This document shows positions 1,914-22,440 of a stretch of 22,913 bases of DNA, piece after piece. The stretch lies in IMG/VR virus record IMGVR_UViG_3300020438_000294, positions 1 to 22,913 of that record. One strand, written 5' to 3'. The notes under the pieces were generated by a model. The model saw only the letters and a list, made by a program, of their open reading frames with translations, had not been told where the DNA came from and made no database searches. A program made the translations under genes and the position numbers. Every line of letters begins with the position of its first letter. The first letter of the stretch is position 1. Source of the stretch: a virus.

Positions 1914-2215
1914 GAAAGTATTTGACTTGCTGCTCTTGATACCACTTCTAGTGAGAAGGGATCGCCAGCCGTGTGTAAAGTGTAGATCGAGTCTGAGTCG
2001 ACAATACCTCCTGAAGAAGCTGAAGTTTGGGTGACGTTTTCTCCACTCCACTTGTTCAGAGCTGACCCGTAAGTAGTTGTCGTGATCGTCTCCTCTATAG
2101 CCTGAGTTGTTGTTGTTGTACTGTTCATCGAACCCTGGGTGAAGTTTGGGGTTACTAATTCTGCTCTTGCTGCTGTGGGTGATGCCAGTAAGAAGAGTAA
2201 TAGCCATTTGTTCAT
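1844..2215 (-). CDS. Secreted Thr/Ser-rich protein
   Basis: A 123-residue protein with a clear signal peptide (MNKWLLLFLLASPTAARA, cleavage likely before ELVTP at residue 19). The mature part is rich in Thr and Ser, with runs STTTTTQ and ETITTTT, a TYGSALNKWSGENVT segment and a C-terminus ending VSLSVFSQ. The ATG at 2215 overlaps the stop of the upstream 56-aa gene as ATGA. The last 70 nt overlap the next gene in the -1 frame. The repetitive beta-prone composition suits an extended surface or periplasmic protein. Proteins with the same layout (LVTPNFTQG followed by Thr-rich repeats) are, as I recall, widespread in marine cyanophages without known function. Confidence 0.82.
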   Translation of the reverse strand: MNKWLLLFLLASPTAARAELVTPNFTQGSMNSTTTTTQAIEETITTTTYGSALNKWSGENVTQTSASSGGIVDSDSIYTLHTAGDPFSLEVVSRAASQILSLEVVEREIDTSSTTVSLSVFSQ

Positions 2216-2382
2216 TCTTCTTTTTTCTTATTCATTGGACAATTAACAGTTGCTTTACCGTTGCCATTTTTATTACCAGTGGTCAAGCCAAAAGTTGCTA
2301 AGGCTCCAGTAAAGACAGAAGCTACAAAAGTTATATCCGAGTTACCAGCTTTCTTTATCATGGGTAACTCTACATAATTCAT
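2212..2382 (-). CDS. Second half of a TGA-split membrane protein (holin candidate)
   Basis: A 56-codon gene beginning MNYVELPMIKKAGNSDITF. A hydrophobic segment follows at about residues 17-35 (DITFVASVFTGALATFGL), then a basic tail ending MNKKKEE. It is in the same frame as the 45-codon gene upstream and separated from it only by TGA and three codons. In related cyanophage proteins, as I remember them, these two parts form one continuous two-helix membrane protein. Two short membrane helices, a charged tail and a position after the fibre genes all fit a holin-like or lysis-accessory role (T7 places its holin gene 17.5 there), but this is inference. Its stop overlaps the next ATG as ATGA. Confidence 0.6.
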   Translation of the reverse strand: MNYVELPMIKKAGNSDITFVASVFTGALATFGLTTGNKNGNGKATVNCPMNKKKEE

Positions 2383-2391
2383 AGTTATGAT

Positions 2392-2529
2392 TCAAATAAA
2401 GCCCGACCAAACCACTACTCCTAGACGTACGAAAGTTCCAAGAATCTGTATTTGATGTTCTTGGTCTTCAGCAGCATCTTTGAGTTTTGTTAGGAGGCTT
2501 GGTTTCGGGCTTTCCTCTTTTCCTTCCAT
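2392..2529 (-). CDS. First half of a TGA-split membrane protein (45 aa)
   Basis: A 45-codon gene starting at the ATG at 2529, inside the end of the 94-aa gene upstream and in a different frame. The product has a charged N-terminus (MEGKEESPKP), an amphipathic helix (LLTKLKDAAEDQEHQIQIL), and a hydrophobic segment GTFVRLGVVVWSGFI that is cut off by the stop TGA at 2394-2392. The same frame stays open after the TGA for 60 more codons, containing the 56-aa gene. The KLKDAAEDQE...IQILGTFVRLGVVVW pattern is one I recall as conserved in marine cyanophage proteins. Either the gene is truly split, or TGA is read through, or the stop is a mutation or sequencing error. Confidence 0.6.
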   Translation of the reverse strand: MEGKEESPKPSLLTKLKDAAEDQEHQIQILGTFVRLGVVVWSGFI

Positions 2530-4347: not shown

Positions 4348-7300
4348 TTAGGCAGTGTATTTAATCCAGATGTCGCCATCTGAACCACCTGAAGGTGAAG
4401 AAGTAGATGCTGTTATTTTACGTACACCAGCAGTTCCAGAAGCAGTAGAAGCAACACCAGAGAATTGACCACTATCATTTATTTCAAAACTATTTAATCC
4501 AGGTATTCTGAACTTGGTTATTGATGTATTACCTAAAGTTATTTCATTTGATACATCTGCTGCACTTGGATCTGAATTATTACCAAGGATAAGATTATTA
4601 CTTCCAGTAAAACTACTAATATCTCCAGCAGCTCGTCCGATACATGTGTTACTACCACCCGTACCATATCTAAATGAATCTTGACCAACACAAACGTTGG
4701 AAGAACCAGACGTAACTGCTTTACCAGCGTACGCTCCAATCAAAGTATTAGAACTACCCGTAGTAAGACCGGTACCGCATTGCGCTCCTATAATTACGGT
4801 TTCGCCTGATGTTGTAACTGCATTACCAGCATTAGTTCCTAAAGCAGTTGTATTAGTCGAAGTTGTAAGAGAACTTAAACACCCTTGACCAACGGCTGTA
4901 TTTGAAGATCCAGTCGTATTAGCTTTTAAAGCCTCATAACCAACGGCTGTGTTGCTGGCTCCAGACCCGTTTTCTTTTAAGGCATAACGTCCAACACCAA
5001 CGTTATTAGATCCAGTACAATCACCACCACCAATTGCTTCATCTCCAATAGCCGTATTCTGTGATCCTGTTGAAATATGGAATCCAGCTTTATATCCAAA
5101 ACTTGTGTTTGACGCTCCTGTAGTAGTTCTTTCTTGTGATTGAAATCCAACAGCAGTATTTTTATCGCCGGTTGTTAAATAATTAAGAGCTGAATAACCA
5201 ACTCCAACTGTATAATTAGCTGTTGTTGCAGCTTGAACAGCACCTGATCCAACTGCTGTGACTTGAGAACTTGTAAAACCACTTGCTGCATTGTAACCAA
5301 TAGCTACGCTACTTGACCCTTCTACCTGAGCATCTAAAGCAAATGATCCAACGGCTACATTTGAAGTTCCTGTAGTATTTACAAACAACGCTTGATAACC
5401 AAGGGCTGTATTGTTACTTCCCGTACAACCTGATCCACCTTTAAAAGCTTCCTTACCAACGGCAGTATTGTTACTTCCCGTTGATAATGCTCTTAAACAA
5501 TCTTGTCCAAGCCCAGTATTACCACTACCCGTTGTTATAGTTTCTCCACAAATAGCACCAATAAGTGTATTATTATCTCCAGTTGTTACTGCTTGACCAG
5601 CATCACCTCCATAAAGTGTATTTTCATTAGCACCACTAGCTAAACCATTTCCTGATCTATAACCTGCGTAAGTGTTATATCCAGAATCATTAGCATTACC
5701 ACTACCATTTTTTAGCTTTACATAAGTTTCACCAGTAGACGTACCACCAGCAGCTTCCCATCCAGCGTCACCGTTAGCGTCTACTGTTAAGACGTAGTTA
5801 TCGGTAGCCGTTGAATCTTTAATACTAAAATTAAGACCTGGGACTCTGAACTTGGTAACAGAAGCATTACCTAAAGTTATCTCATTACTTACACTTGTAG
5901 AAGATGGAGCTGCGGCATATCCAACTACAGTATTATTAGCTCCAGTTTGAGTACCGGAGTTAGCAGAATGACCAAGACTTGTTTGTTGACCACCAGTTAC
6001 CCCTCTTCCTGAATAATATCCAATGCTTGTATTATGAGCAGCTGTTGTTGCGAGTCTTCCAGCATCATATCCTATTGATACGTTTGCACCTCCAGTAGTT
6101 GATGAACCACCTGCATTAGAACCAATATAAACACTCATATAACCTGTTGTATTAAGAGCCGCTGCTTTATAACCTATAGCAACAGTATCGGTTTCATAAA
6201 CCCAAGCATCAGTATGGGTTTCTAAAGCACCAGATCCAATCGCTACTGTATTTTGCATTGCAGTAGCGGTCTTTGCTGCATTATGTCCTATTGCTACGTT
6301 GTTAGCTCCAGTACTTACTGTTAAAGCCTTAAACCCAACAGCTGTGTTACTGGCTCCGGATGTAACTGTTGAAAGAGCCCAACTACCAACTGCCGTATTT
6401 CCAGCACCTTCACTATCTCTTAAAGCTCTATAACCAACTGCTGTATTATCTTGTACGTCTGCACCACAACTACCTAATGCCGAATTACCCACTGCAGTAT
6501 TAAAATCGCCAGTAGTTAGAGCCTCCGTAGACTCAAAACCTATAGAGGTGTTTTTAGTACCGTCAGTACAACCTGTTAAAGCTTTAACTCCAAAAGCAAC
6601 ATTCTCACCGCCAGTAGTCGTTATTGAATCCAAAGCGGTTGAACCAACTGCAGTTGCGTATGCAGTTGAGATTCCAGAAAGCCCTCCACCAGAAGCAGCA
6701 GCCCATTTAACACCAGTAGCTTCACCAGAGTCAGCTGTTAAAACATAATCATTAGTTCCTACAGCTAAAGCAGTTGGATCACCTGAACCATCTCCTATTA
6801 ATAATTCACCCTTACCATCAAGGTCAGAGTTCATCACGGCTCCAGCCGTATTGACGTTAGTTGCATTTACTGTTGCATCTGAACCATCTGCACCTGCTGG
6901 TCCTTGTGGACCTGTAGCACCCGTAGAACCCGTAGCACCTGCAGCTCCTGCCGCACCAGTGTTACCTGTTGCACCTTGTGGACCTGCTGGACCTGTTGAA
7001 CCTGCTGGTCCTTGAGAACCTGTTGCACCGTCTGAGCCATCAGCTCCTGCAGCTCCAGTTGCTCCAGTACTACCTGCTGGTCCTGCTGGTCCTGTGGCTC
7101 CATCATTACCGTCAGCTCCCGCTGCTCCAGTTGCACCTTGTGGACCTGCTGGACCAGTTGATCCAGTAGCTCCCGCTGCTCCAGTAGCTCCTCTAGGAAT
7201 TGTAAAATTTAAAGTAGCTGCTGTTGATGTACCAGTGTTAGAAACTGAGGCGTTAGTACCAGCATTACCTGTAGTCGTTGAGCCAATACTTACCGTAGCT

Positions 7301-8319
7301 GATCCGTCAGCTCCTGCATTACCTTGCGGACCTGCATTACCTTGCGGACCTTGTGGACCTGTATTTCCAGTAGCTCCAGTATTACCAGTAGCTCCTGTAT
7401 TACCTTGTGGACCTTGCGAACCTGTAGCTCCCTGTGGACCTGTAGCTCCAGTCGGACCTGCAACTGTTGAATCTGCACCTGCTGCTCCAGTAGCTCCTTG
7501 CGGACCTGTAGCTCCAGTTGGACCCGTTGCACCCGTTGGTCCTGCAACTGTTGAGTCAGCTCCAGCAGCACCCGTAGCACCTTGTGGTCCAGTAGCTCCC
7601 TGTGGTCCAGTCGGACCTGCAACTGTTGAGTCAGCACCTGTAGCTCCTGTGGCACCTTGAGGTCCAGTTGGTCCTGTCGGTCCAGTATTACCTGTTGGAC
7701 CTTGTGCTCCAGTGTTACCTGTTGCACCTTGGCTACCTTGTGGACCTGTAGATCCAGTTGGACCTGTGGCTCCTGTAGCTCCGGTAGCTCCTACAAGAGT
7801 AGTAGCTGATCCCCATACACCATTAGCTTTAGGACCATAGATATTATCGTTAGTCGTATCAATATAAACATCACCGTCTTTACCTAGTCCCTGATCAGGA
7901 ACTCCTGTACCGTTATTTGTAGTAGCTTTGTTTTTAGGATTAGATGTATCACCTATCTCCTGTTCAGAGTATAAATTCTGGTCTTGGTTATTATTTAAAT
8001 CAGTTGCTCTAAATGCAGAACCAGAGGCAAAGACTGCTTTAGCAGATGCAACATCTGTATCTCTATAAATTAAGATTTTAACTCCACTCTTAGGAGCACC
8101 AGATGCTATTTGTGTATTAGTTTGGAACGTATCTAAAGTTCCACTAATAGAACTGAATTGGATGGATGTGGCTGTAGCGAATGTGTATTTAGTTGTTGCT
8201 AAAGTCTTACCGTTAAGTGAAACTTTAACATCTTCAGTTTTTAGATATGGAAATGAAAAACTATATGAAGTTGAACTTCCATTTCCTGTGTAATCAGTTG
8301 TTGATGCTGTAGTAGCCAT
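4348..8319 (-). CDS. Giant chimeric tail fibre: T7-type anchor, collagen-like shaft, two YadA-like head modules
   Basis: A 1323-residue protein. Residues 1-125 match the T7 gp17-type N-terminal anchor ([44 protein letters not shown]). Residues 177-340 and 377-482 are Gly-X-Y collagen-like repeats (GATGPQG, GPTGATG), separated by a short globular stretch ([26 protein letters not shown]). Residues about 550-830 and 875-1277 are tandem 15-30-residue repeats built on NTAVGxxAL/NTSIG, like the left-handed beta-roll head repeats of trimeric autotransporter adhesins. Each of these modules closes with [17 protein letters not shown]. The end is [15 protein letters not shown] trimeric fibre is implied by both collagen-like and YadA-like parts; the anchor should bind the tail and the heads the host. 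The gene starts 9 nt after the first fibre gene ends. Confidence 0.9.
4489..6672 (-). repeat. Two homologous YadA-like head-repeat modules
   Basis: Module A (6672-5830) and module B (5697-4489) are both built from NTAVGxxAL-type units and both end with SNEITLGN(A/T)S(V/I)TKFR(V/I)PGLN. The bridge between them ([19 protein letters not shown]) also resembles the lead-in of module A ([23 protein letters not shown]), so the duplicated unit is lead-in plus head. Module B has more repeats. Confidence 0.88.
6874..7791 (-). repeat. Collagen-like Gly-X-Y repeat region of the giant fibre
   Basis: Two Gly-X-Y runs (7791-7300 and 7191-6874) within the 1323-aa fibre gene, with triplets such as [15 protein letters not shown]. 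The first contains three near-identical DNA units starting at the [11 protein letters not shown] codons (spaced 25 and 28 codons), a sign of recent unequal recombination. A 36-residue non-collagen stretch separates the runs. Such regions change length easily between strains. Confidence 0.92.
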
Positions 8320-21828: not shown

Positions 21829-21934
21829 TAGGTTTAGTTTCTTCTTTATGCTCCTCTGGCTTATTGTGATGTGCGTCTGTCTGAAGACGGAACGAAGTCA
21901 CTTTAGCTGGATTACCTTTTGATTGGTGAGACAT
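21815..21934 (-). CDS. Small hydrophilic protein (39 aa)
   Basis: A 39-codon gene, MSHQSKGNPAKVTSFRLQTD followed by AHHNKPEEHKEETKPSEKD. Its ATG overlaps the stop of the beta-barrel gene as TAATG, which argues for coupled translation. The product is highly charged, His- and Glu-rich in its second half and probably unfolded. No family recognised. It is not a high-light-inducible protein: the chlorophyll-binding ExxNGRxAM motif is absent. Confidence 0.55.
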   Translation of the reverse strand: MSHQSKGNPAKVTSFRLQTDAHHNKPEEHKEETKPSEKD

Positions 21935-22296
21935 TAGAAACTGAACTTAGCTCCTATTTTTGTACCGTATGAATTATCAGCATCTTCTTTTGTGATGCCT
22001 GAGAACTCACCATAAACACCTAGCTTTTGAGACACGTTAAATGTACCTCCAAGCTTACCTGAGATTCCTGATTCAGTTCCATCTACATCAGCAACAGCAG
22101 TGAATGCTGGACCGCCTTGAATGTAGTAATCAAACTTCTTTATAGAACCTTCGTATCCAACATGTAGATCAATAGTTCTTCCTGAGTAGTCAGAACCTGT
22201 GTATCCATCGTTAGATTCAGCGTTTATATATACGCCAGCGGATGCAGGTGCAGACGCTAATGTGGTGGCTGCGAGAGCAAGTGCAATAGTTTTCAT
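21934..22296 (-). CDS. Secreted small beta-barrel-like outer membrane protein
   Basis: A 120-residue protein with a clear signal peptide (MKTIALALAATTLASAPASA, cleavage before G21). The mature 100 residues alternate hydrophobic and polar positions in strand-length units (TIDLHVGYEG, KFDYYIQGGPAFTAVADV, SGKLGGTFNVSQKLGVYGEF, YGTKIGAKFSF). The last residue is Phe, a classical outer-membrane beta-barrel assembly signal. Proteins of this kind next to photosynthesis genes are, as I recall, common in marine cyanophages and unassigned. It could change the host outer membrane during infection, for example permeability or exclusion of other phages; this is inference. It begins 4 nt after the peptide gene stop. 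Confidence 0.83.
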   Translation of the reverse strand: MKTIALALAATTLASAPASAGVYINAESNDGYTGSDYSGRTIDLHVGYEGSIKKFDYYIQGGPAFTAVADVDGTESGISGKLGGTFNVSQKLGVYGEFSGITKEDADNSYGTKIGAKFSF

Positions 22297-22376: not shown

Positions 22377-22440
22377 GTACCTCAGACCCCGTTCCATGTC
22401 TAAGGTTTCATGCGTCCCAAAGGGATGAACGGAAGTATCG
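22377..22440 (-). promoter_or_regulatory. Glutamine-riboswitch-like RNA (Downstream-peptide type) behind psbA
   Basis: Directly after the psbA stop, the RNA holds CCGTTC (22432-22427), hairpin TCCC-TTT-GGGA (22425-22415), ACGCATGAAACC, and a hairpin CCTTAGAC / GTCTGAGG (8 pairs, one wobble; 22405-22398 with 22387-22380). That hairpin's 10-nt loop contains GAACGG (22394-22389). CCGTTC and GAACGG are perfect complements, giving a pseudoknot. The CGTTCA-TCC...GGACG...GAACG arrangement is what I remember of the glnA and Downstream-peptide RNAs of cyanobacteria and cyanophages, reported to bind glutamine. A 3' hairpin then masks the ribosome site of the peptide gene. The class assignment is from memory of the consensus; the pairings are seen directly. 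Confidence 0.62.

Follow-up and report, generated by a model that had tools for sequence, protein, structure and literature searches.

The interrupted DUF6450 gene

The stretch of DNA analysed here, called the window, comprises positions 1 to 22,913 of IMG/VR virus record IMGVR_UViG_3300020438_000294 (22,913 nucleotides). Its subject is a small membrane protein gene of the DUF6450 family (PF20048), located after the tail-fibre genes, which is split by a TGA codon that the ribosome probably hops over. As the original prediction had noted, and as is confirmed on the minus strand, a single frame runs from ATG 2529 to the stop codon TGA at 2214-2212 and is broken by TGA at 2394-2392, with an ATG at 2382 standing three codons further on. 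The window gene matches PF20048 with 105.9 bits, which exceeds the curated cut-off of 25 bits; an unsplit relative, locus L003, reaches 112.7 bits. The read-through translation, P0001, gives an E value of 9e-31. The features of the gene are given below, where ORF is open reading frame and pN/pS is the ratio of non-synonymous to synonymous polymorphism.

2395 to 2529, minus strand: ORF1, 45 codons of the DUF6450 membrane protein, the last of which is the proposed take-off codon (PF20048 match).
2496 to 2513, minus strand: 5' arm of an RNA stem, AAAGCCCGA (2513-2505), bulge AA (2504-2503) and CCAAGCC (2502-2496) (window fold, duplex energy and synonymous shuffles).
2398 to 2413, minus strand: 3' arm of the stem, GGTTTGG (2413-2407) and TCGGGCTTT (2406-2398), adjoining the take-off codon (core pairs and compensatory changes).
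2395 to 2397, minus strand: take-off codon ATT (Ile) (comparison of split alleles).
2392 to 2394, minus strand: stop codon TGA, passed over in the proposed hop (TGA in all 64 distinct segments).
2389 to 2391, minus strand: putative landing codon ATC (Ile), with ATA 2388-2386 as the next decoded codon (ATC, GTC, ATA or ATT here in 63/63).
2215 to 2391, minus strand: ORF2, the C-terminal half, with the end of helix 1, helix 2 and a basic tail; 58 residues past the landing codon, stop at 2214-2212 (intact in 62/62 complete split alleles; pN/pS 0.30).
2380 to 2382, minus strand: ATG, the restart site of the original prediction, unconserved (27/63 split versus 72/134 unsplit).

The analysis supports the predicted picture of a two-helix membrane protein that is split, recoded and encoded behind the fibre genes, and the annotation of P-SSP7 lists a DUF6450 gene product with two transmembrane regions. 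The idea of one membrane segment in each half holds only in part, because the break at residue 45 lies inside the first helix, which is predicted at residues 23-51 by a weak AlphaFold2 model of an unsplit relative (predicted local distance difference test 54.7, predicted template modelling score 0.28), and within a hydrophobic stretch at about 26-56. A product terminated at this position would thus be cut within helix 1. The PHROGs matched by the window protein are of unknown function; Pfam, PHROGs and NCBIfam assign no function to the DUF6450 protein, and no holin family was matched. A candidate holin role is compatible with the position and size of the gene.

The split form among relatives

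Relatives of the gene were found in 157 of 50,697 phage records, from T7-like and T4-like cyanophages. As pattern scans can bias the counts, the distance between the WSG and NY motifs was measured in 343 records without demanding a stop codon. No ORF2 match was obtained in 101 of them and no ORF1 end in one; the 241 placeable records gave 197 distinct relatives, and loci L258-L282 were excluded from the counts. In 134 of the 197, the distance is 15 nucleotides (nt) with no stop, and the protein reads WSG-FIITM/L-NY or a close variant. In the other 63, the distance is 20 nt (25 relatives), 21 nt (16), 22 nt (7) or 23 nt (15), and no length besides these five occurred among the 197. The earlier statement that relatives read straight through this point therefore applies to the 134, whereas the 63 share the split. 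Locus L368 is a further split case beyond the 63, with a 12-nt insert and a longer spacer.

The proportion of 63/197 does not equal a natural frequency, because the relatives were gathered partly by patterns. The pattern scans added loci, one batch consisting of 118 loci with 18 in the DUF6450 gene; 25 pattern matches on genome contigs of unrelated bacteria and archaea were judged from their titles to be due to chance. In two homology-only lists, restricted to the best 80 of each, the split form accounts for 4/80 and 15/80. When the best 80 relatives of the window protein in IMG/VR are considered, the same TGA is present in 4 and the other 76 are uninterrupted.

The TGA is genuine and is neither a sequencing error nor an assembly error, the latter being the objection that the original prediction had itself raised: the same interruption is present in 96 loci, counting overlapping stretches of one contig, or 63 distinct segments, and in the cultured cyanophage SS120-1. 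An unsplit second copy was absent from 9/9 records searched, namely the SS120-1 genome (46,997 bases) and eight IMG/VR records, which are possibly fragments; each has one copy, as two halves.

The insert and its flanking codons

In the split alleles, an Ile codon is followed by TGA, 0-3 purines and an Ile-like codon, ATC, GTC, ATA or ATT. The insert itself consists of TGA, purines and then TC, TA or TT, and the landing-site codon precedes ATA/ATT-AC. The spacer from TGA to the last two bases of the insert is all purine in 63/63 distinct segments, a codon set that includes L368 and was de-duplicated otherwise than the 63 split relatives among the 197. The stop is TGA in 64/64 distinct segments; two pattern scans admitted TAA too, and the stem scan and the homology lists admitted any stop.

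The inserts of 5, 6, 7, 8 or 12 nt place ORF2 in any frame relative to ORF1, which excludes both plain readthrough and one fixed frameshift, whether −1 or +1, for the family. The TGA readthrough proposed earlier is contradicted by the 47 of 63 split relatives that are out of frame (inserts of 5, 7 or 8 nt). A frame-independent hop by the isoleucine transfer RNA (tRNA-Ile) would fit all classes, because the unsplit protein would be restored whatever the insert length; a hop across the insert would give F-I-I-T back in every gap class.

The take-off and landing codons in the 63-segment set are ATT-ATC (30), ATT-GTC (15), ATC-ATC (11), ATC-GTC (1), ATC-ATT (1), ATA-ATA (4) and ATA-ATC (1). An ATY take-off is accompanied by an RTY landing in 58/58 segments (42 ATY and 16 GTC), and an ATA take-off by an ATA landing in 4/5. 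Take-off and landing match the same tRNA in 46/63. The ATA-ATA match is suggestive but not independent, because four of the ATA cases are closely related. ATA serves as the first Ile codon in 53/134 unsplit relatives versus 5/63 split relatives.

The RNA stem upstream of the take-off codon

In the split alleles, the bases that lead up to the take-off codon pair with a segment about 100 nt upstream; in the window this stem is formed by AAAGCCCGA-AA-CCAAGCC and GGTTTGG-TCGGGCTTT. The z-score of the single-strand fold is −5.05 for the window, −7.37 for L368 and −6.31 for both SS120-1 and L243. Duplex energies average −25.7 kcal/mol in the split alleles (n = 61) versus −14.0 kcal/mol in the unsplit ones (n = 132), with a slight overlap of the ranges (best unsplit −22.8, worst split −19.5); G+C was equal between the two forms in earlier, smaller sets of this comparison. 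Relative to synonymous shuffles that preserve the protein, the mean z is −5.05 for split (n = 61) versus −0.45 for unsplit alleles (n = 127). The window duplex has −27.7 kcal/mol, and 0/2000 shuffles are as low, while 4/2000 reach the observed value for L302.

Four core pairs of the stem form in 61/61 split alleles, with one mismatch in some 5' arms, such as AAGCCCT in L001. Compensated changes were found from C-G to U-A in L243, from G-C to U-G in L291 and from A-U to G-C at the outer pair. Alleles of the L302 type are also compensated and have the same AAGCCC in another codon phase, where it encodes other residues; the stem of L368 has a wholly different sequence and is still fully paired. 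When 5' arms were swapped, foreign arms were as good in 0/60 cases for L243, 7/60 for L236, 16/60 for L302 and 17/60 for L291. Arm specificity is clear only for L243, and its lower level in the other three is expected because most arms are alike. A search of Rfam gave no match at the stem.

A membrane-anchored upstream ORF (2490-2774) overlaps ORF1 at 2490-2529 of the window. The 5' arm lies inside this overlap, and the stem therefore also constrains the C-terminus of the upstream ORF.

Selection and start codons in the two halves

Both halves are selected, each in its own frame, as judged from polymorphism: with 60 sequences for each half, pN/pS amounts to 0.29 in ORF1 and 0.30 in ORF2. ORF2, of 51-65 residues, is open throughout in 62/62 complete split alleles. 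In the 36 alleles without the ATG, codons 2-9 past the landing codon show a pN of 0.048 and a pS of 0.559, a ratio of 0.085.

The ATG matching 2382 is missing in 36/63 split relatives, and it is not enriched in the split alleles (27/63 versus 72/134 unsplit). Five of the 63 have no ATG, GTG or TTG in the ORF2 frame, whether upstream as far as the preceding stop or over the next 20 codons.

Evolution of the split allele and the cultured phage SS120-1

A tree of 193 alleles was determined from an alignment that left out the stem arms and the gap; it is limited by the short sequences and by recombination. The split and unsplit states change 10 times on this tree, with 7 changes forced by well-supported branches, compared to a mean of about 52 for shuffled states, and the gap length changes 15 times. 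As the tree requires at least 7-10 switches, alleles are exchanged or regained; the split allele moves, or is regained or lost, repeatedly.

In the cultured cyanophage SS120-1 (HQ316584), which infects Prochlorococcus SS120, the site reads ATT-TGAAA-ATC-ATA and the stem is present. The annotation of this phage has no coding sequence (CDS) at the split gene, and the locus tag CYYG_00023 is skipped. A 48-base search of the phage collection returned SS120-1, which is represented there by two records, and a single weak match to a Lactobacillus phage. The sequences of P-SSP3, P-GSP1, P-SSP2 and P-SSP10 are without the insert, and a single annotated CDS spans the hop site in NATL1A-7 and P-SSP7. In P-SSP3 (HQ332137, L284:1480-1570), the unsplit DUF6450 CDS is annotated short (1645-1815), even though its reading frame continues uninterrupted through the hop site; this frame seems to be broken in an A-rich run near the start.

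The proposed stop-hop and its alternatives

We consider it likely that the split DUF6450 gene is a case of programmed ribosomal bypassing, a stop-hop in which the 5' stem acts as the motor. In the window, the ribosome would translate 45 codons and arrive at AUU with UGA in the aminoacyl (A) site. The messenger RNA (mRNA) just behind the ribosome would fold into the long stem, the 3' arm of which adjoins the take-off codon, and the re-forming stem would pull the mRNA back through the ribosome. The peptidyl-tRNA-Ile would then leave AUU, pass UGA and re-pair at AUC; family-wide, tRNA-Ile would leave AUY, skip UGA and re-pair at RUY. Decoding would continue at AUA to produce a 103-residue protein as in the unsplit relatives; the predicted junction peptide is LGVVVWSGFIITLNYVEIPMTK, with no residue added at the hop. 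Ribosomes terminating at UGA would instead yield a fragment of 45 residues that ends inside membrane helix 1. From the features described above we infer the hop itself, the action of the stem as its motor and the ratio of the two products. The stem gains a natural role in this mechanism, because in the model of T4 gene 60, as given in excerpts from PubMed Central (PMC) articles PMC5009743 and PMC11194080, the mRNA is pulled by a 5' stem-loop as its pairing becomes complete.

Several observations weigh against the stop-hop. The GTC landing codon, present in 16/63, could be reached by tRNA-Ile only by a first-position G-U pair, and one ATA take-off has an ATC landing. The allele counts are not independent because the alleles are related by descent. 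No take-off hairpin fits the gap, and the downstream folding is the same in split and unsplit relatives with no added structure, both of which are unlike T4. The support for the hop is at the level of sequence, and no nascent-peptide signal was identified. The 6-nt gap of the window, taken alone, also permits products by readthrough or by restart at ATG 2382. In 38/63 alleles, a canonical start, which is TTG in every listed case, lies upstream of the landing codon in the ORF2 frame, so that coupling of stop and start is possible in these alleles.

The last point bears on the main rival of the hop, which we regard as unlikely: termination at TGA and restart nearby, at varied canonical or rare starts, to give two small membrane proteins. 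Restart is independent of frame, as the hop is; an upstream start is available in 38/63 alleles and the ATG in 27/63. The predicted restart at ATG 2382 is accordingly possible in the window, and stop-overlapping TTG or unusual AUC, GUC or AUA starts would be needed elsewhere; AUC, AUU and AUA are known rare start codons. However, a different start codon would be required for each class, the five alleles with no canonical start would have to be accommodated, and the ATG shows no enrichment where it would be used. The strong purifying selection on codons ahead of the first start and the position of the break inside helix 1 also argue against restart, which leaves the stem and the Ile-Ile match unexplained.

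A mixture of recoding events, with UGA readthrough at gaps of 6 and 12 nt, −1 frameshifting at 5 and 8 nt and +1 frameshifting at 7 nt, appears highly improbable. Readthrough preserves the frame in the window alone, but the mixture would require three different mechanisms to share one signal at a single site, helix 1 would gain residues in a number varying by class, and the take-off site does not appear to be a usual slippery heptamer. More improbable still is a decaying or dispensable allele maintained by recombination with intact ones. The repeated switches on the tree are in its favour, whereas the intact ORF2, the pN/pS of about 0.3 in both halves, the compensated stem and the absence of an intact second copy in the nine records are not. 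A site acting at the level of DNA or transcript (intrinsic terminator, recombination or endonuclease site) that lies in the gene by chance is hardly credible, since the inverted repeat followed by TTTATTT resembles a terminator but the T tract is lost in variants with TTCATATGA or TTCATCTGA, the stem closes a loop of about 50-80 nt, Rfam is blank at the site, and the constant stop codon and intact ORF2 would remain unexplained.

Comparison with known systems

The proposed stop-hop has in common with T4 gene 60 a stop codon directly past the take-off codon, a 5' stem-loop ahead of that codon, and one peptidyl-tRNA that would re-pair at a matching codon. The length of ORF1 is 46 codons in gene 60 and 42-50 codons in split DUF6450. 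The gap between the codons is 50 nt in gene 60 but 2-9 nt in split DUF6450, and the gap hairpin, the 3' stem-loop and the nascent-peptide signal of gene 60 have no identified counterpart here. The hop codon is Gly in gene 60 and Ile in DUF6450, where the stop is always UGA. Split DUF6450 further differs in its many alleles of varied gap.

Synthetic stop-hops in E. coli were described by Weiss et al. 1987 (via excerpts of PMC5009743), with +5 and +6 shifts named in the title; split DUF6450 instead occurs in nature, is conserved and is linked to an RNA stem under selection. The byp elements of Magnusiomyces capitatus mitochondria are likewise short inserts skipped in many places with imperfect codon matches tolerated, whereas split DUF6450 involves a single gene, a bacterial-type ribosome and a strong mRNA context. 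For another short-gap phage gene, a UUA codon and a Shine-Dalgarno sequence were proposed, in place of the UGA and stem of split DUF6450.

According to the excerpted text of a 2016 review (PMC5009743), short counterparts with matched codons had long been expected, and in-frame stop hopping had been demonstrated with synthetic constructs but was not known to occur naturally. T4 gene 60 is called apparently unique in the excerpted text of PMC3014915. No report of bypassing in cyanophages or DUF6450 was found in the open-licence PMC literature.

Other features of the window

At 22381-22434 on the minus strand, a Glutamine-II riboswitch aptamer (RF01704, 46.6 bits) is the one Rfam match of the window. 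It sits between a small ORF (21934-22296) and a partial gene that we take to be psbA, and it possibly represents nitrogen-linked control in a cyanophage. The region 1335-2215 holds two overlapping ORFs in different frames that match different PHROGs (650; 848 and 1755), and the longer ORF probably starts well inside the listed frame. The fibre protein encoded at 4348-8319 on the minus strand is very long and contains a collagen-like G-x-y stretch as well as numerous short repeats. The region 1-407 contains a small basic ORF and an ORF cut by the window end, which resembles the P-SSP7 annotation and presumably encodes an HNH-like endonuclease. T4 gene 60, too, originated next to a homing endonuclease. 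The possibility that the reverse complement is tRNA-like or an attachment site was dropped; no tRNA was found in the window.

Significance

Efficient bypassing of the bacterial type has essentially meant T4 gene 60 alone. The dozens of DUF6450 alleles that vary in gap, codons and stem, together with a cultured pair of host and phage, would make the rules of hopping directly testable. The case is also a warning that genes of this kind are thrown out by gene callers and curators, as in SS120-1, with no CDS and CYYG_00023 missing. We lean towards the view that marine cyanophages carry a natural and widespread stop-hop module, in which one stem abutting an Ile codon would suffice for tRNA-Ile to make UGA jumps of +5, +6, +7, +8 and +12 nt. 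Such a module would toggle between lineages and set the dose of the full-length protein relative to the fragment cut in helix 1, perhaps in response to release factor 2, and may thereby time a late step of infection.
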